From positions 1 through 41,939 of IMG/VR virus record IMGVR_UViG_3300027917_000010: 41,939 nt of DNA, one strand, 5' to 3'. Shown here one piece after another: positions 5,347 to 41,939 of the stretch. The position numbers were made by a program, and so were the translations under genes. A model generated the notes under the pieces. The model saw only the letters and a list, made by a program, of their open reading frames with translations, was not told the origin of the DNA and ran no database searches. Origin of the DNA: a virus. Every line of letters starts with the position of its first letter. Position 1 is the stretch's first letter.

Positions 5347-5662
5347 AAGAGAAATCAAAATGGGGATCAAGCCTGAGAACCCTGGAGCTGTATGCAGCGC
5401 TACCGGTCGCGCTTGTAAGTGTAACGGCGGGCGTTGCCGCTTTGGTGGTGAATCGCGCCTGGACAAGGTTTCAGTCCCGGTTGTACGCCACCTACGAAGT
5501 GCCAAAATCATGCTTGAAGCCGCGCTCGAACACATTGACCTCGCTCTCGGGGCAGACCACCTACTCATCCGAAAGTACCCAGCACCAGAAGTGCGGGAGA
5601 CACGTCGGAAAATAGTGGCGGCAATCGCGATGATAGAAGAAATCGGTGGGGAGTTGAAGTGA
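5336..5662 (+). CDS. Hypothetical protein with Cys-rich N-terminus
   Basis: 108 residues from the ATG at 5336. An adjacent ATG at 5333 and a TTG at 5324 are in frame, but GGGGAGG (5326-5332) lies just upstream of the ATGs. The N-terminal third contains four cysteines (AVCSATGRACKCNGGRC), possibly metal-binding. The C-terminal two thirds are helical (HLRSAKIMLEAALEHIDLALG, RRKIVAAIAMIEEIGGEL). It ends with a GTGA overlap onto the helicase gene. Position suggests a helicase partner or loader, but that is inference only; no known loader motif is visible. Confidence 0.65.
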   Translation: MANEREIKMGIKPENPGAVCSATGRACKCNGGRCRFGGESRLDKVSVPVVRHLRSAKIMLEAALEHIDLALGADHLLIRKYPAPEVRETRRKIVAAIAMIEEIGGELK

Positions 5663-6513
5663 GACTACACTCAACATCGGAGACTATTCATGAAGCTATC
5701 GACACGTTCAGGCTCGACTCTCTCGAGCCTCCTAATCTGGTGCCTTTGGGAATCCCTCCTCTTGACAACGAGATCGGTGGCCTGGGTCCTGGGGCGCTCG
5801 GAGTACTTGCGGCACCTACCGGAGCGGGAAAGAGCAGCGCCATGTTGTCTGCCATGCTTTCGTCGAAGGTCAAGGTGGGAGCTATTTCGGCTGAGGATGG
5901 CCCGGACGTTGTCGGCACCCGACTACTCTCGGCTATCACTGGGATCGACAGCTTGCGATTACGGCGTAAGGACCTCACGAAAAAAGACCTGAAGACTATC
6001 GCAGAAGCAGCCAAGGCGTCCACTCTGGACCACATGCATTTCGCATATCCTATCGGTGGGCGCATCGGGTTGGTCGAAGAAGCTATCGCGGAAATGGGGG
6101 AGCGCGGCTGTCGTCTCGTGTGGTGCGACTACCTCCAGTGTTTCAGCGTCCCCGGCCACAAGGAGCGGCGCGGAGAGATCAACGAGCTGCTGAGTCGTAT
6201 TCACCAAGCGGGTGCGGACGCGGGATGCGCCATCATGTTAATCAGCCAGTTTCGTCGGGTGGGCGAAGACCTCAAGACCGGGAAGCCACGGCCCCTCGGG
6301 ATCCACCACCTGAAGGAGTCGGGTGACATAGAGAATAAGGCGCGCATCATCGTCATCGCTCAGAAGCAGCCGGCGCCTGATGGTGTTCGCGTGAGGTTCA
6401 AGCTGGCGAAGTGTACATACGGGGGCGAGTATGTGAAGTACGATATGCTCCGAGATAATAGTGGTACGTTGAGACACGTCCACTATTATAAGCCGGAGGA
6501 GAATTGGGGGTAA
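5659..6513 (+). CDS. DnaB-type replicative helicase domain (RecA-like ATPase)
   Basis: 284 residues, starting at a GTG that overlaps the previous stop (GTGA), with GGTGGGGAG upstream. Walker A is APTGAGKSS (K58, S59). E79 in AISAED matches the catalytic Glu of DnaB. Walker B is LVWCDYLQ (D157). LISQFRR (Q197) and RPLGIHHLKESGDIENKA (about 211-228) match DnaB motifs 3 and 4. Only the C-terminal ATPase domain is present; there is no DnaB N-terminal domain and no primase domain, unlike T7 gp4. It should unwind the fork ahead of the family A polymerase. A RadA/KaiC-like ATPase is the alternative, but the LKESGDIE motif favours DnaB. Confidence 0.88.
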   Translation: MRLHSTSETIHEAIDTFRLDSLEPPNLVPLGIPPLDNEIGGLGPGALGVLAAPTGAGKSSAMLSAMLSSKVKVGAISAEDGPDVVGTRLLSAITGIDSLRLRRKDLTKKDLKTIAEAAKASTLDHMHFAYPIGGRIGLVEEAIAEMGERGCRLVWCDYLQCFSVPGHKERRGEINELLSRIHQAGADAGCAIMLISQFRRVGEDLKTGKPRPLGIHHLKESGDIENKARIIVIAQKQPAPDGVRVRFKLAKCTYGGEYVKYDMLRDNSGTLRHVHYYKPEENWG

Positions 6514-6514
6514 C

Positions 6515-6907
6515 ATGTCGGGCAAGAAGTCCCGTGACAAGGGAAGCAGGTTCGAGCTGTTCTTGGAGAAGGCATTCCGCGCCTCGTTCCCTGATGCTCG
6601 TCGCATGGGGGGTACGCAGTCGCGCGATCCTAAGTACGCAGATATAGAGGGCACACCGTTTAGAATAGAGGCCAAGCATTGGGCTAAGCTGACGTACAAG
6701 AACATCACGGACGCACTAGCTCAGGCGAAGGAAAATAGCGAGAGGTACGAGGATAATCGCATCCCGATCGCTATCACTAGGGTTGACTACGCCAAGGATG
6801 AGCTTGTGCATATGACACTGCGGCATTTCCTTGCGCTAATCGAGCGTCACTTCTGGAGAGAGCCTGAGTTTGCGGAAGTGATTCCAATCCGTGGTGAAGA
6901 GGAATGA
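6515..6907 (+). CDS. PD-(D/E)XK nuclease, Holliday-junction-resolvase-like
   Basis: 130 residues, one base after the helicase stop. It has the order typical of small resolvase-like nucleases: a basic N-terminus with E14 (SRDKGSRFELFLEKAF), then RRMGGTQSRDPKYADIEG with D43, and E52-A-K54 in FRIEAKHW. A helix with a possible Gln (ALAQAKENSERY) follows. Such proteins cut branched or single-strand-containing DNA. Genes of this type occur next to helicase genes in many phages. The genome also encodes an endonuclease VII-like protein (34172-34537), so two junction-cutting activities may be present. Exact substrate unknown. Confidence 0.75.
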   Translation: MSGKKSRDKGSRFELFLEKAFRASFPDARRMGGTQSRDPKYADIEGTPFRIEAKHWAKLTYKNITDALAQAKENSERYEDNRIPIAITRVDYAKDELVHMTLRHFLALIERHFWREPEFAEVIPIRGEEE

Positions 6908-7662
6908 GTGGCCCAAAAGCAGTGGTGGTAGGTGATCTGCATTTCCACCCTCTTTACGACAATAAGAGGGCCACGGAAATCGGGGAGTTTGCTGCAGAGG
7001 AACTTGCCACCGCTGGTGATGAGGGCTTCCTAGTTCTGATGGGGGACGTCGCGGACTGCGTGGCCTTCAACGAGCACGGAAGCAAACTGGAGCTAGAGGG
7101 GGCGCGTTGGAAGGACGACATCGCCGCGTGCAAGGATGGGCTGGACCGCCTGATGCAGCCCTTCTACAGGCGCAAGCGCAAGCTGCCGCACCGGATCGTA
7201 ACGTTAGGGAACCACGAGAACCGCGTCAACCGCTGGCTCAAGCAGGAGCCGCGCTTCGCTGGTATGATGTCGACGGAGGATCTTGGCTTCGCTCAGTTTG
7301 GCTTCCAGACTTTCGAATACGGGAAGATGGTGCAGATCGGAGGCACCAACTTCGTACACAATCTGGGGACGCAGACTAACCGTGCCGCGCAGATCACGAG
7401 CCCAACCAACGGGATCAAGTCAATCGGCGTGTCAACTATTGTCGGACACTCCCACAAGTTTTCGCATACGCCAGTTCCTTTCCGGGACCGGTATGTCCAC
7501 GGGATCGACGTGGGGTGCGCTATTCATCGGGATATGGGGTTCGGTGAGGGGTGGTCGCACCAGACCGCGCACCTCTACCGACGCTGCGTATGGGTGCTTG
7601 ACAATATGGAGAACGGCGATTTTGATCATCGCTCCGTTCGTCTGGAAACGCTGGGTGTCTGA
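6904..7662 (+). CDS. Calcineurin-like metallophosphoesterase
   Basis: 252 residues; the ATG overlaps the previous stop (ATGA). All five metallophosphoesterase blocks are present: GDLHFH (D11, H13), GDVAD (D48), GNHENR (N103, H104), H152 in NFVHN, and GHSHKF (H182, H184). The two-metal site is therefore complete and the enzyme is probably active. Substrates of this family include DNA (Mre11/SbcD), cyclic nucleotides and phosphoproteins. No nuclease-specific cap is obvious, and a separate nuclease is encoded just upstream. Possible jobs are DNA end processing or hydrolysis of a signalling nucleotide, but the sequence does not decide between them. Confidence 0.88.
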   Translation: MSGPKAVVVGDLHFHPLYDNKRATEIGEFAAEELATAGDEGFLVLMGDVADCVAFNEHGSKLELEGARWKDDIAACKDGLDRLMQPFYRRKRKLPHRIVTLGNHENRVNRWLKQEPRFAGMMSTEDLGFAQFGFQTFEYGKMVQIGGTNFVHNLGTQTNRAAQITSPTNGIKSIGVSTIVGHSHKFSHTPVPFRDRYVHGIDVGCAIHRDMGFGEGWSHQTAHLYRRCVWVLDNMENGDFDHRSVRLETLGV

Positions 7663-8096
7663 TGATTTACGAACACGAATGCAGGGATTGCAATCTTGAA
7701 TGGCAGGAGGAGTACAGCCTGGAGACCTTCGACGTCTTAAAGGCTCGAGAAAAGGAGACAGGAGAGGGCATTTCCTGTCCCGATTGCGAGAGCACGAACA
7801 CCTTCAGGCACGTCAACTACATACCCGTCCACTTCAAGGGTGGCGGATGGAGCCCACAAGGGTACTATCAATATGAAGCATACGATACTCTGCAGGCGCA
7901 AGGAAAGAAAATTACGCTCTACGATCGTAAGGAGGACCTAGACCGCGTGATGGAGGGCGAGAAGAGGCAGCGGATCATCCGTCGTATGAAGCGGGAAGAC
8001 GAGATCGCAAAGCGAACCCTCGGTCCCGACGCAGCGTTCACCGAAAAGCGTGCGGAGAAGGCACTGGCCAAGCGCATGAAGAAGGACGAGCCTTGA
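7662..8096 (+). CDS. FmdB-like zinc-ribbon protein with long charged tail
   Basis: 144 residues, start overlapping the previous stop (TGATG). The N-terminus (MIYEHECRDCNLEWQ...) with C7-x2-C10 and C39-x2-C42 (ISCPDC) is the FmdB/zinc-ribbon pattern, often annotated as a regulatory protein. The usual domain is 45-55 residues. Here it is followed by about 90 residues with a YYQYEAYD segment and a strongly basic/acidic helix (RVMEGEKRQRIIRRMKREDE ...). Phage members of this group occur with replication and packaging genes; the function is not established. The TGA of this gene overlaps the TTG start of the protease-like gene, so the two are co-translated. Confidence 0.75.
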   Translation: MIYEHECRDCNLEWQEEYSLETFDVLKAREKETGEGISCPDCESTNTFRHVNYIPVHFKGGGWSPQGYYQYEAYDTLQAQGKKITLYDRKEDLDRVMEGEKRQRIIRRMKREDEIAKRTLGPDAAFTEKRAEKALAKRMKKDEP

Positions 8097-8593
8097 CCAT
8101 CTGCCTGGCCGCCAAGTTCAAGGACGGGGTGCTGTGCTGCACAGACTCCGCTGTTTCCGTTGGGCACAACCGTCTAACCAAACCCGACATCAAGGGCTGG
8201 TGGAGGCACAACTCGTTTGTGATGTTCAGCGGCACGTTGTACTACGCGCAAGAGATCTTGCACGCCACACCCAAGGACCTGCGCAGCGCAGTGCTGGAAG
8301 TGAAGAAAATGCATAAGGACGATGATGATGATGAGGATTCCGCTGAACTGTTAGAGGTTCGAGGCGGGGACATCTATTACTATGAGTCGACTGGAGCGGT
8401 GATGAAGGCCGGGAACTACGGCGCCATCGGGCATGGCTCTACGCTCGGGCTCGCGCTGCTCGACATGGTGTACGCACCGGGGCGCTCAGAGAAATGGTTA
8501 CGCACGCACATGGAGAACATCGTGCGCATTGTTGAGAAGTATGACACGACGGTCTTCCGCCCTTCAAGATTTGAGGTTATCACTGGAGGTTAA
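8093..8593 (+). CDS. HslV/proteasome-beta-like Ntn hydrolase (putative Thr protease)
   Basis: 166 residues from a TTG at 8093 overlapping the previous stop, with AAGGACGAG upstream. After removal of Met the protein begins Thr-Ile-Cys-Leu-Ala. In that numbering T1, D17 (CCTDSAVSVG) and K33 (PDIKGWW) fall at exactly the positions of the HslV/proteasome catalytic triad T1, D17, K33. SGT at 45-47 and AIGHGSTLGLALL (110-121) match the HslV oxyanion loop and the IGSGG loop, with His113 in place of the usual Ser. Length is close to HslV. An acidic run (DDDDDED, about 75-81) is an insertion. No HslU/Clp-type ATPase is encoded here, so it would act alone or with a host unfoldase. Peptidase activity is inferred, not shown. 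Confidence 0.75.
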   Translation: MTICLAAKFKDGVLCCTDSAVSVGHNRLTKPDIKGWWRHNSFVMFSGTLYYAQEILHATPKDLRSAVLEVKKMHKDDDDDEDSAELLEVRGGDIYYYESTGAVMKAGNYGAIGHGSTLGLALLDMVYAPGRSEKWLRTHMENIVRIVEKYDTTVFRPSRFEVITGG

Positions 8594-8727: not shown

Positions 8728-8961
8728 ATGACTGAACACATGATCATCTTTAACACATTGATCGTGCTGGCGTTCCTCGTGCAGATCTATAACTATTGGC
8801 TTCTCGGAGAAGATCGCGTCAACCATTACACATGGTTGTTTGTTCTTGGGTGCTTTGTTATTACTGAAACTATGGTTGCGTTGACGATGAGTAAGATATA
8901 CTTTCTCTATGTTGCGCTGAACCTTTTCGGGATATGGAGGTTGTTCAGATGGGTCCGTTAG
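8728..8961 (+). CDS. Small multi-span membrane protein
   Basis: 77 residues with two to three hydrophobic helices (about 5-25, 35-52 and 56-72: IIFNTLIVLAFLVQIYNYWL, WLFVLGCFVITETMVAL, IYFLYVALNLFGIW) and a basic end (RLFRWVR). Translation start at ATG 8728, six bases after the preceding gene; no strong ribosome site is seen, so coupling is likely. I do not recognise it. With the 41-residue protein it forms a membrane pair at the end of the rightward unit. Confidence 0.65.
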   Translation: MTEHMIIFNTLIVLAFLVQIYNYWLLGEDRVNHYTWLFVLGCFVITETMVALTMSKIYFLYVALNLFGIWRLFRWVR

Positions 8962-10995: not shown

Positions 10996-11670
10996 TTAGT
11001 TTAATAGGGTCCTAATGTATTCCGGGAGAACGGCCTGCCCAACCGGCATAATCTCTGGCACAATCGCCCCCTGCCCCACTGCCGTACTGACCACTATCCC
11101 GATGAGTCGTCCCTTCTCGTCGAGGATGGGACCACCAGAGTTTCCCCCGATGAACTGCCCATCTACGTCAAAGGTATAGTCACTGTATTCGCTGCTGGGG
11201 GAGGACACAAAGCCCGCGAACAGATGGACCCTGCTGAACCCATTCGGGAAGCCAGTCCAAATAACCCGCATGCCGTAGGTTGGCTCCCATGGGGAGATCT
11301 CTACCCCGCCACGTAGCCTCGCCCCAACGGCATCAACGATGGCCAGATCCTTCGACTCCCATCTGGTGACGATCACACCATTGAAGTACTTGCTCTGGTA
11401 TAGTATGAACAGCTGGATGTCTTTGAACTTATCCGTGAAGAACGGCGCAACGCAGTGATCAGCGGTAACGATAGCCCCATCGACGACGACTCCTGAGCAA
11501 TAGTGAACCAGCTCACCATTGATCTTTGCTGCTAGACTGACTGTTGCGTCGAGCACGTCCTGTACCTTGGCCGCACCGTCATCCTCTGGGGGAGTCGTGG
11601 GCGTGGATACCTTGAAGAGGCCGCACCCAGAGAGCGCGACGAGGAGTAAGGCAATGGCTGTCTGTTTCAT
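10996..11670 (-). CDS. Lipoprotein trypsin-fold (S1-like) serine protease, lysis-cassette copy
   Basis: 224 residues from ATG 11670, which overlaps the stop of the upstream gene (ATGA); a longer reading to 11736 is rejected. The signal peptide ends in the lipobox LSGC with C16. The catalytic triad is H72 (VTADHC), D108 (ESKDLAIVDA) and S178 (GGNSGGPI), with C58-C73 placed for the classic disulfide next to the His. The GNSGGP form and compact size resemble HtrA/V8-like bacterial S1 peptidases. It should be lipid-anchored in the periplasm. Possible roles: degrading envelope proteins in lysis, replacing a spanin function, or blocking superinfection. The choice between these is inference. Confidence 0.85.
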   Translation of the reverse strand: MKQTAIALLLVALSGCGLFKVSTPTTPPEDDGAAKVQDVLDATVSLAAKINGELVHYCSGVVVDGAIVTADHCVAPFFTDKFKDIQLFILYQSKYFNGVIVTRWESKDLAIVDAVGARLRGGVEISPWEPTYGMRVIWTGFPNGFSRVHLFAGFVSSPSSEYSDYTFDVDGQFIGGNSGGPILDEKGRLIGIVVSTAVGQGAIVPEIMPVGQAVLPEYIRTLLN

Positions 11671-11909
11671 AGAACTGAAATTATGATGGGCAAAAGGGCG
11701 AGAAGCACCGCCACACCAGCAGACACCAGTGCCCACGTAGCCTTGCGTTGCTGTTGCTCGAGCACCACGATACGCTCATGGTGATTAATAGATCTCTCAT
11801 CATGACGTTCTAAAGCGCCTTCGACACGCGCTAGACGCTCGTTGATGGTATCCAACTTTTGATCAATCCTTTGGAGGATGAACTGTATTTTGTTCTCGGA
11901 CTCATTCAT
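11667..11909 (-). CDS. Coiled-coil protein with C-terminal TM (XhlA-like / spanin-like)
   Basis: 80 residues: a hydrophilic heptad-like helix (about 5-55, including RIDQKLDTINERLARVEGAL and RIVVLEQQQRKA), then one hydrophobic helix to the end (ALVSAGVAVLLALLPIIISV). This is the layout of XhlA/haemolysin-type lysis proteins. It is also a mirror image of i-spanins, which have the TM at the N-terminus. Coupled by ATGA to the lipoprotein protease gene. It is probably a lysis accessory; the pairing of a membrane coiled-coil with a lipoprotein recalls spanin pairs, but topology is reversed. Confidence 0.6.
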   Translation of the reverse strand: MNESENKIQFILQRIDQKLDTINERLARVEGALERHDERSINHHERIVVLEQQQRKATWALVSAGVAVLLALLPIIISVL

Positions 11910-33703: not shown

Positions 33704-34175
33704 TTTGAAGCTCGTCGAGCAGCCACGGGAGGAACACCGCCGACCACTCTTTCATCTTGTCAGCGAGCCATGGCTTGCGCATGTCCTTGGTACCATATGT
33801 GTAGACCACATTTTGCCCCTTGGTGTACCCAAAGTCCGAGTAAAATCTGGTCATCAGTTCTTTACTCACCCCCTGCCGCTGTGAACCTTTCTTTACTTTG
33901 AGGAAATGGACTACGGGAAGGTTCTCAAAGGGCTGCGCGATCAGGTATCCCCTAAATAGGTGTGGCTTACCCGGCTCGCACGCGAGGTAGGCAGAGCCCG
34001 CCTTGGTGCTCCACTCCAGGAGCTTCGCGATCTTGTCGTGCTCGTAGCCGAAATAATCGTCTCTGATAAGACCCGGAAATCTCATGGCCGGCGACTCTTG
34101 ATAATCATAGAGCCAAGATTGCAAAATATACTTACGATCCGCAAACGTTACCGGCCTGATATCTGATTCACTCAT
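33693..34175 (-). CDS. GNAT-fold protein (acetyltransferase-like) of the packaging cluster
   Basis: 160 residues, coupled by ATGA to the endonuclease VII gene. The layout is that of a GNAT: IRPVTFADRKYILQSWLYDY (helices 1-2), GSAYLACEPGKPHLFRGYLI, then PVVHFLKVKKGSQRQGVSKE (beta4 and the acetyl-CoA pyrophosphate loop, QRQGVS replacing Q/RxxGxG/A). The last third deviates from the family. Proteins like this are found next to terminase in many podoviruses; the substrate is unknown. It may be catalytically altered, since the loop has S instead of G/A at its last position. Confidence 0.65.
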   Translation of the reverse strand: MSESDIRPVTFADRKYILQSWLYDYQESPAMRFPGLIRDDYFGYEHDKIAKLLEWSTKAGSAYLACEPGKPHLFRGYLIAQPFENLPVVHFLKVKKGSQRQGVSKELMTRFYSDFGYTKGQNVVYTYGTKDMRKPWLADKMKEWSAVFLPWLLDELQSGG

Positions 34176-34537
34176 GCTAGGTACTCCATGGCGCGCTTGA
34201 CGCCCTCAAGATTGTCTCCAAGAAGGCCGATGCCTCTATTGCACTTGCCGCACAGGAAGCCTCGGATGTCACCGGTGTCGTGACAGTGGTCACACTGCGC
34301 ATCGTCCCACTTCAGGTACGTCCCGCAGCAGCGACACAGGCCGCCCTGCTCCGCCCACATCGCTTTGCCCTCACTGACTGTGATACCATACCGGCGAGCA
34401 TAGAGCCGCGCCCGCTCCCTCTTCCGTTTCCGCTCACGGTTGTTCTTGGCCCACGCCCTGGACCTGGCTTTGGCGTTCTCTCGGAACTCCGGGTCTTCGC
34501 GATACCGGCGTTGGTGGTAGCTTTTACTCTCGCTCAT
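34172..34537 (-). CDS. Recombination endonuclease VII-like (T4 gp49 family)
   Basis: 121 residues. A basic helical N-terminus (ENAKARSRAWAKNNRERKRK) leads to the HNH/endo VII core: CRCCG (68-72), DHCHDTGDIRGFLCGKCN (D83, H84, H86, C96, C99, N100) and RGIGLLGDN. The two Cys pairs bind zinc; D83-H84 and N100 are the catalytic signature. It should resolve branched DNA ahead of packaging, and its place next to terminase supports that. It overlaps the gene before it by 14 nt and the one after it by 4 nt. Confidence 0.9.
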   Translation of the reverse strand: MSESKSYHQRRYREDPEFRENAKARSRAWAKNNRERKRKRERARLYARRYGITVSEGKAMWAEQGGLCRCCGTYLKWDDAQCDHCHDTGDIRGFLCGKCNRGIGLLGDNLEGVKRAMEYLA

Positions 34538-39384: not shown

Positions 39385-39674
39385 AGCACGGTTCCTTCCT
39401 CGATGATAGGGGCTGCCCACTCCAGCGTTTTGTGCATCTCACCAAAGGCCACGAGCGCCTTGCGCCGCGTCGGTGCATGGAAGGCGTTGCCCTCCCCGTC
39501 GAGCACCACGTCGTACCCCTTGATGCCCTTCGGCGCCTTTACGAGCATAGCCGCCATGACCTTCCCGTCGTCGCGCACGTATTCCAGGCGGTAGCTCGGG
39601 GGCTTGCGCTTGATGCGCGTGATCAACACACCCTCCTCCATCGTTTCCGTTCCGACACGTCGCCACTGGAACAT
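39381..39674 (-). CDS. Hypothetical small protein
   Basis: 97 residues, ATG overlapping the stop of the serine protease gene (TAATG). Beta-rich core (GVLITRIKRKPPSYRLEYVR, KVMAAMLVKAPKGIKGYDVV), then a helix (RRKALVAFGEMHKTL). Not recognised. Co-expressed with the envelope lipoprotein genes. Confidence 0.65.
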   Translation of the reverse strand: MFQWRRVGTETMEEGVLITRIKRKPPSYRLEYVRDDGKVMAAMLVKAPKGIKGYDVVLDGEGNAFHAPTRRKALVAFGEMHKTLEWAAPIIEEGTVL

Positions 39675-40369
39675 TAGCGCACGTTCTCCTCGATCCAGGC
39701 AGCGTGGTCGCTAGCGTTTAGGTTCACGTAGCCGCCCGTTCCGTCGCACACGCCGGGCTCGCCGTAACCGAATGACACCACGCCTACGATGTTGTCATTG
39801 CAGTACAACGGGCCGCCGGAGTCTCCATTACAGGAGCCCTCGGACGCCCACAAGATCCCGTGCTGCGCACGGCATACGTTGATCTCTCGCTCGTGAAGCT
39901 CACGGTTAGAACCGATACCCCAGCCCTGCACTATATAATACTCGCAATCTTCTAGGTTCCCGATCGTAGCGAACGGTCCCGGGAGACCCTCTTCCGTGTA
40001 GAGAATGCGCAGGTCGTGCGCACCCGGCTTGACCGCAAGGGGGTGCTCGATGCTCTCAGCAACCGCCCAGCAGTCCGTGTTGAAGTTCAGGCACACGCGG
40101 TCCAGGTTCTCACAGTGCGCTGCAGTGAGCACAGTGTGCGGGCCCACGACGGTGCCGGTGCAGTAGCCAAGACCACCGACGAAGACGGTGCTGCGTCGAT
40201 CAGTGCTCAGTACGCCGTTAACAACGTACCGATTGACGCCGCTCTGATCGGGGGATTCACACGCTACGACACTCGGGCCGCACCCGTGCAGGAGCATGGC
40301 GATTACAACCCAACCGCAAGCGATGAACACGAGTATCCAAGTTAGATGTTTGTGCTCCGGCTGTCTCAC
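39674..40369 (-). CDS. Lipoprotein chymotrypsin-family (S1A) serine protease, early-region copy
   Basis: 231 residues from GTG 40369 (GTGA overlap). A membrane/signal segment (WILVFIACGWVVIAMLL) ends in lipobox LHGC with C30. Triad: H85 (LTAAHC), D119 (AHDLRIL), S184 (GDSGGPL). Nine or so cysteines, including C70-C86 around the His and C180 next to the Ser, predict several disulfides, so it works outside the cytoplasm. The residue at the base of the S1 pocket (two before C180) is Gly, not the Asp of trypsin. It is not closely similar to the protease at 10996-11670. Possible role: trimming surface proteins to block superinfection or counter predators; inferred. Confidence 0.88.
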   Translation of the reverse strand: MRQPEHKHLTWILVFIACGWVVIAMLLHGCGPSVVACESPDQSGVNRYVVNGVLSTDRRSTVFVGGLGYCTGTVVGPHTVLTAAHCENLDRVCLNFNTDCWAVAESIEHPLAVKPGAHDLRILYTEEGLPGPFATIGNLEDCEYYIVQGWGIGSNRELHEREINVCRAQHGILWASEGSCNGDSGGPLYCNDNIVGVVSFGYGEPGVCDGTGGYVNLNASDHAAWIEENVR

Positions 40370-41561: not shown

Positions 41562-41939
41562 CTATAAATATTCGTTGTCAAGCCTGATCGAAATATTTTC
41601 TCGAAGCGCGGCGATATGCTTTCGGATCTTAGAGCGACTTATATCGAGCGCCTCCGCAATCGTGCGCTCCCCCTCGCTTTGTGAGTGAAGCAGCCACACC
41701 CAACACCGCTCGTCGGAAAGCCTGCATTCCCGGATAGCCTGCACCGCGATCAGCTCCGCATGGTGATAGTATCGTGCCTTTCCGCCCCCAAGGTAATTAA
41801 TGGCGTCCAGCTCGTCGCTCGCTACATCGTCAAACTCTCTCGGAGCACGGTCACCCTTCAACCCCCCGTCAATCTTCGGTTTGTTTGCGAGCGAGTGAAG
41901 TGACACGGTACTCGTTGGTCCTTTGAGCAGCGGACCCTC
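41562..41939 (-). CDS. Helix-turn-helix protein, C-terminal part (start lies at 207)
   Basis: Open to the window end in frame with the part at 1-207. The last 40 residues (SEGERTIAEALDISRSKIRK, HIAALRENI) form a helix-turn-helix typical of sigma-region-4/response-regulator-like DNA-binding domains; the middle contains ARYYHHAELIAVQAIRECRL. This makes a 161-residue probable transcription regulator of the early unit. Which promoters it binds is unknown; the repeats at 4835-4893 or 36231-36268 are candidates. Confidence 0.85.
   Translation of the reverse strand, partial: EGPLLKGPTSTVSLHSLANKPKIDGGLKGDRAPREFDDVASDELDAINYLGGGKARYYHHAELIAVQAIRECRLSDERCWVWLLHSQSEGERTIAEALDISRSKIRKHIAALRENISIRLDNEYL
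41841..41939. repeat. Terminal direct repeat, right copy
   Basis: Exact second copy of bases 1-99. If one copy is removed, the unit genome is 41,840 bp. Both copies code for the same internal stretch of the helix-turn-helix gene that starts at 207 and ends at 41562. Confidence 0.95.

Follow-up and report, generated by a model that had tools for sequence, protein, structure and literature searches.

The gene at positions 8093-8593 of a 42-kb phage genome probably encodes a threonine peptidase of the proteasome-beta/HslV superfamily, one that would act as an unfoldase-free ring or double ring on limited substrates during infection. The window, meaning the whole stretch of 41,939 nucleotides that was analysed, carries an exact 99-bp direct terminal repeat (1-99 and 41841-41939), so the genome is probably complete. 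It encodes a terminase, a portal and a major head protein, along with a DNA polymerase, a DnaB-like helicase, and Rad52-like and YqaJ recombination proteins. The protease gene and its surroundings are laid out as follows:

5659-6513, plus strand: DnaB-like replicative helicase, head of a conserved run (PF03796, E=7.3e-22; PHROG_19, E=6.7e-32)
6515-6907, plus strand: RusA-like Holliday junction resolvase, conserved neighbour (PHROG_244, E=1.7e-17; synteny)
6904-7662, plus strand: metallophosphoesterase, conserved neighbour (PHROG_221, E=1.7e-22; synteny)
7662-8096, plus strand: zinc-ribbon-like CxxC protein, overlapping the protease gene (weak Pfam zinc-ribbon matches)
8093-8593, plus strand: predicted proteasome-like Ntn-hydrolase, 166 aa (165 without Met)
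8093-8095, plus strand: TTG start codon, which places Thr right behind the initiator
8728-8961, plus strand: small membrane protein with two hydrophobic segments (homologs downstream of the protease in phage contigs L003 and L005)

The translation of the 8093-8593 open reading frame begins (M)TICLAAKFKDGVLCCTDSAVSVGHNRLTKPDIKG. With the methionine off, Thr is residue 1, Asp residue 17 and Lys residue 33, which is the numbering of the catalytic residues of HslV and of 20S proteasome beta subunits. The window has 630 candidate starts with 100 or more open codons behind them, and the T2/D18/K34 spacing that corresponds to this register occurs at just one, 8093; the register exceeds chance. A sequence-only reading of the window had singled out the register, and the residues are as it stated. 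It had also proposed a TTG start tied to the previous stop, with Thr at position 2, and this too holds: in TTGA at 8093-8096, the TTG of the protease shares letters with the stop codon that ends the preceding zinc-ribbon gene. Of the two further loops that it matched to the family, SGT and IGHG, both are present and the oxyanion glycine lies within SGT, but IGHG is an imperfect fit to the family GSG motif because G-H-G replaces G-S-G and the equivalent of Ser129 is His.

The relatives use different start codons. The protease of L062 begins ATG-Thr, preceded by GGAGG, and that of L063 likewise begins ATG-Thr. In L064 (6001-6003), as in L005 (9474), the start is apparently ATC-Thr behind a strong Shine-Dalgarno sequence, GAGGAGG, and in L064 the stretch from the upstream stop to the conserved Thr codon contains neither ATG, GTG nor TTG. 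Since the start codon varies while the Thr codon always comes next, Thr at position 2 is conserved. The known specificity of methionine aminopeptidase includes the removal of Met before Thr, and on this basis the initiator would be expected to be removed from the 8093-8593 product.

Profile comparisons place the protein in the proteasome superfamily. The Pfam family PF00227 (Proteasome) matches the product at 28.6 bits, against a cut-off of 22.4 (E=1.3e-6), and matches six of the seven members of the protease family. All seven are matched by PHROG_1040, 'peptidase HslV family', the match to the window protein being remote (E=1.8e-5, 25.5 bits). While a PDB search with the single sequence was weak (best E=0.026), a profile made the relationship clear. 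The family profile found the betaproteobacterial proteasome homolog BPH (PDB 5ovu; PMC5777263) as the best of the solved structures (E=1.3e-5), with Thr1 aligned on Thr1, followed by bacterial proteasome beta subunits and HslV (best HslV, E=2.5e-3). With a profile of the window's own group, Vibrio phage 166E36-1 scored 23.5 bits, BPH 19.7 and FKP3 19.6, against 5.7 for E. coli HslV and at most 3.0 for reversed sequences. HslV proper was discarded as the family, since it scores below BPH and the genome yielded no unfoldase.

A structural model was generated with AlphaFold from the seven-sequence alignment (mean pLDDT 81, pTM 0.80), and its order of strands and helices is that of proteasome subunits. 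Foldseek matched the model to proteasome subunits at probability 1.00, with TM-scores up to about 0.74. Against the PDB there were 1281 matches at E≤1e-3, of which the best 50 were all a proteasome subunit or Anbu. Against predicted viral structures there were 31 matches at the same threshold, including proteins of Vibrio phage VpV262, Gordonia phage Daredevil and a Caulobacter phage. Model residues 21-31, between Asp17 and Lys33, have pLDDT below 50; homology suggests that Thr1, Asp17 and Lys33 are clustered in space.

The profile searches and the model together make the 8093-8593 product, as predicted, an Ntn-hydrolase of the proteasome/HslV superfamily with an alpha-beta-beta-alpha Ntn fold. 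The sequence-only reading, which had called the protein HslV/proteasome-like, was thus right about the superfamily; HslV is not the nearest relative. A chance resemblance in a non-Ntn protein, to which the weak single-sequence PDB result might point, is practically refuted by the fold, and the profile and conservation results also speak against it.

Three close relatives keep T1/D17/K33, at 81, 46 and 40% identity, and comparison with the closest of them (L062, 81%, which came from a further scan) gives a dN/dS of 0.13 at a dS of 1.28. Judged from these sequence comparisons, the open reading frame is a real gene on which purifying selection acts. When 18 divergent phage proteins were aligned without forcing, Asp17, Lys33 and the two motif glycines did not vary; the first residue was Thr in 15 proteins and Ser in three. 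Few further positions are conserved, and this points to a working active site.

The same alignment bears on a non-catalytic role, in which the protein would be a proteasome-fold scaffold or inhibitor, for example by entering the HslV or proteasome rings of the host as a decoy subunit. The His at the Ser129-equivalent position, found in both the window protein and L062, would suit such a role, and in proteasome alpha subunits the fold already has an inactive member. That the conserved columns are precisely residue 1, Asp17, Lys33 and the two glycines, and that Thr stays right behind the initiator while start codons differ, makes a non-catalytic role very unlikely. The Ser129 equivalent is an accessory residue that varies across the family: L063 and L064 have Ser there, while other phage members carry Ser, Cys or Glu.

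Sequence searches with the protease itself reached few relatives. In tblastn against annotated phages, no phage record matched at E≤0.01, and single-sequence tblastn searches of annotated phages and plasmids were of no use. The way to relatives was the adjacent helicase, which found 46 loci. The helicase-linked phage records G002 and G004 carry the protease at about 50 and 47% identity, and PHROG_1040 additionally detects it in G005-G008. The distant relatives of the helicase (35% identity or less) gave no PHROG_1040 match, several of these records being fragments, and the protease gene therefore belongs to the window's phage group and not to every phage that has a helicase of this sort. Bacterial and archaeal genomes scanned with the window-group and Ser1-group alignments yielded no relatives, so a host or prophage link was not made.

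Genomic neighborhood analysis provides further context. All seven related phage contigs that extend to the corresponding place have a proteasome-like gene there. L003, L005 and L062 share the order helicase, RusA-like resolvase, metallophosphoesterase, zinc ribbon, protease, with the zinc-ribbon homolog directly upstream of the protease in each, and the small membrane protein lies 3' of the protease in L003 and L005 (L062 ends too early). In G005-G008, the helicase and resolvase are followed by a protease with Ser1, not Thr1, that belongs to another branch of the superfamily. Two variants therefore occur at the corresponding place in related phages. The Ser1 genes lie at 8937-9485 in L006, 7928-8476 in L007, 6224-6772 in L009 and 3478-4017 in L008; by eye, the next open reading frame after the Ser1 gene in L006 and L007 is a candidate DNA adenine methyltransferase.

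A head-maturation protease was considered and rejected, as the gene stands among plus-strand replication genes, far from the minus-strand head genes. Other features of interest on the minus strand are:

10996-11736, minus strand: predicted trypsin-type protease with a lipoprotein-like N-terminus, LSGC (PF13365, E=4.7e-17)
34172-34537, minus strand: recombination endonuclease VII gene (PF02945, E=1e-19)
39674-40369, minus strand: predicted trypsin-type protease (PF00089, E=2.7e-12)

The two trypsin-type enzymes and the proteasome-like one thus make three predicted peptidases, of two classes, in a 42-kb phage. The endonuclease VII gene is located close upstream of the large terminase gene.

In agreement with the sequence-only reading, which had reported that HslU and Clp-type ATPases are missing from the genome, neither AAA nor AAA_2 gave a match in the window genome or six relatives; each of the 14 control genomes was positive. 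An HslU/Clp-type or classical AAA+ ATPase is not detectable in the window genome. The peptidase might instead borrow an AAA+ unfoldase from the host, such as HslU or ClpX, and by docking on it form a hybrid ATP-dependent protease through which host degradation is redirected. This would fit a phage with no detectable unfoldase of its own, and it would fit the membership in the HslV superfamily given by Pfam and PHROG. The features of the predicted entrance and of the nearest relatives nevertheless render it unlikely. One of them is the following:

8312-8350, plus strand: acidic stretch HKDDDDDEDSAEL at the BPH pore-loop position, where BPH has TKEDEDDPYESSQ

This loop, placed by the family profile alignment with 5ovu, has 8 Asp/Glu in a 16-residue segment, whereas HslV has the basic cluster Arg86/Arg89/Lys90. 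By analogy, so acidic a loop in this position would speak against docking on host HslU in the manner of HslV. In addition, the model has only short helices between strands 4 and 5 (49-56 and 63-73), where the helical layer of HslV is much longer. HslU was not found in pull-downs of BPH, the nearest solved relative (PMC5777263), and a 2021 survey of phage homologs found no co-occurring AAA+ partner (PMC8665760).

Because the helical layer is so much shorter than that of HslV, ring formation is not to be assumed. The shortened layer may not suit a barrel, and this favours a further alternative: instead of forming a degradative barrel, the protein would be a processing enzyme or transpeptidase with high specificity for a single phage or host protein. 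The proteasome superfamily includes such an enzyme in the monomeric ligase connectase (PMC8665760), and BPH is inert on generic substrates. However, the window protein's model lacks the two-helix insertion between strands 3 and 4 that marks connectase; a short turn links strands 35-38 and 41-46. A conserved partner substrate gene was not found either. With the signature insertion absent, a connectase-like ligase was kept as a rival only, and such a role is improbable, to about the same degree as docking on a host unfoldase.

The favoured reading remains that of an unfoldase-free threonine peptidase. Its initiator Met would be removed, exposing Thr1 as the nucleophile, which Lys33 and Asp17 would activate. 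The subunits would most likely assemble into a homo-oligomeric ring or double ring with no dedicated unfoldase, and the acidic loop may line the entrance and choose substrates. To judge from the gene's position, the protease would be made together with the replication genes and, during infection, would cleave only certain host or phage proteins. The His in place of Ser129, the short helical layer, the low pLDDT of residues 21-31 and the inertness of BPH all count against this reading. A more specific version, in which a viral BPH-like barrel with an acidic gate cuts chosen host proteins without ATP during phage DNA replication, is doubtful. If true, this would give a phage proteasome homolog an assigned part in host takeover or counter-defence for the first time.

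Comparison with known systems further defines the position of the protein. HslV shares with it the fold, the catalytic residues in exact numbering and the Met-Thr start, but is the weaker sequence match when compared with BPH, is paired with HslU, which activates its dodecameric double hexamer, and has much longer helices 1 and 2 in addition to its basic cluster.

BPH is a bacterial protein of 197 residues, 14 copies of which form a double ring; it has a long acidic pore loop, placed between H2 and the strand that follows, and no known unfoldase (PMC5777263). Mass spectrometry showed that its Met is removed, epoxomicin binds at its Thr1, and the equivalent of Ser129 hydrogen-bonds Thr1; the purified protein was inert on standard substrates (PMC5777263). 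The window protein resembles it in Thr1, Asp17, the Lys33 equivalent, the acidic stretch before the next strand, the absence of a propeptide and the absence of a known unfoldase. BPH differs in its longer helical layer and in having Ser where the GxG of the window protein has His. Moreover, its tetradecameric ring is proven, whereas ring assembly of the window protein is only predicted.

A phage-made protease of this type had been put forward as new by the sequence-only reading, and this part has to be given up. A 2021 publication had already described PPH and AAH, proteasome homologs of phages, with their function left open and with both a genomic-context clue and a co-occurring AAA+ partner absent (PMC8665760). 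Public phage records also already annotate genes as 'HslV family peptidase' or 'proteosome component protein', in Klebsiella phage FKP3, Pseudomonas phage PsgM04F and Vibrio phage 166E36-1, and further in Ochrobactrum phage OC and Moorella phage MTATph1. A related gene is ORF47 of the podovirus VpV262 (L070, 20743-21303), recorded as 'hypothetical protein', which is proteasome-like with Thr1 and Asp17 in register (MTTIVLNFTNGVGTIAAD). The annotated homologs and ORF47 are phage-encoded and conserve T1/D17/K33, as does the window protein. The annotated homologs, however, come mostly from large phages, several have C-terminal extensions, and those compared share about 22% identity or less with the window protein.

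Some annotated homologs, unlike the window group, lie near a PhoH or DNA methyltransferase gene. In FKP3, PsgM04F and J2-1, a DNA methyltransferase gene is found one to two genes downstream of the protease. In the large phages L056, L057, L058, L069 and L074, the HslV-family peptidase adjoins a PhoH-like P-loop ATPase or is one gene away from it. PhoH might be the ATPase partner of such peptidases, a pairing not seen in the window's close group.

A further close counterpart is PPH, reported without helix H2 and at about 140 residues (Fuchs et al. 2021, PMC8665760). The window protein shares with PPH and PHROG_1040 the encoding by a tailed phage, the proteasome-beta fold, Thr1/Asp17/Lys33 and a compact subunit, as well as the absence of a propeptide and of an AAA+ partner; it differs from PPH in its 165 residues and in the two short helices of its model. 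It is encoded by a phage genome and has BPH and phage homologs as its best matches, as fits a compact phage homolog of group I. Most likely, then, it is close to the PPH kind and falls near BPH and PPH, in group I of Fuchs et al. 2021. The window protease is a well-supported addition to the phage proteasome homologs known since 2021. Its phage group offers a compact, probably complete 42-kb genome, a conserved neighbourhood, and both Thr1 and Ser1 enzyme variants, which makes the activity and targets of an unfoldase-free proteasome-like enzyme testable.
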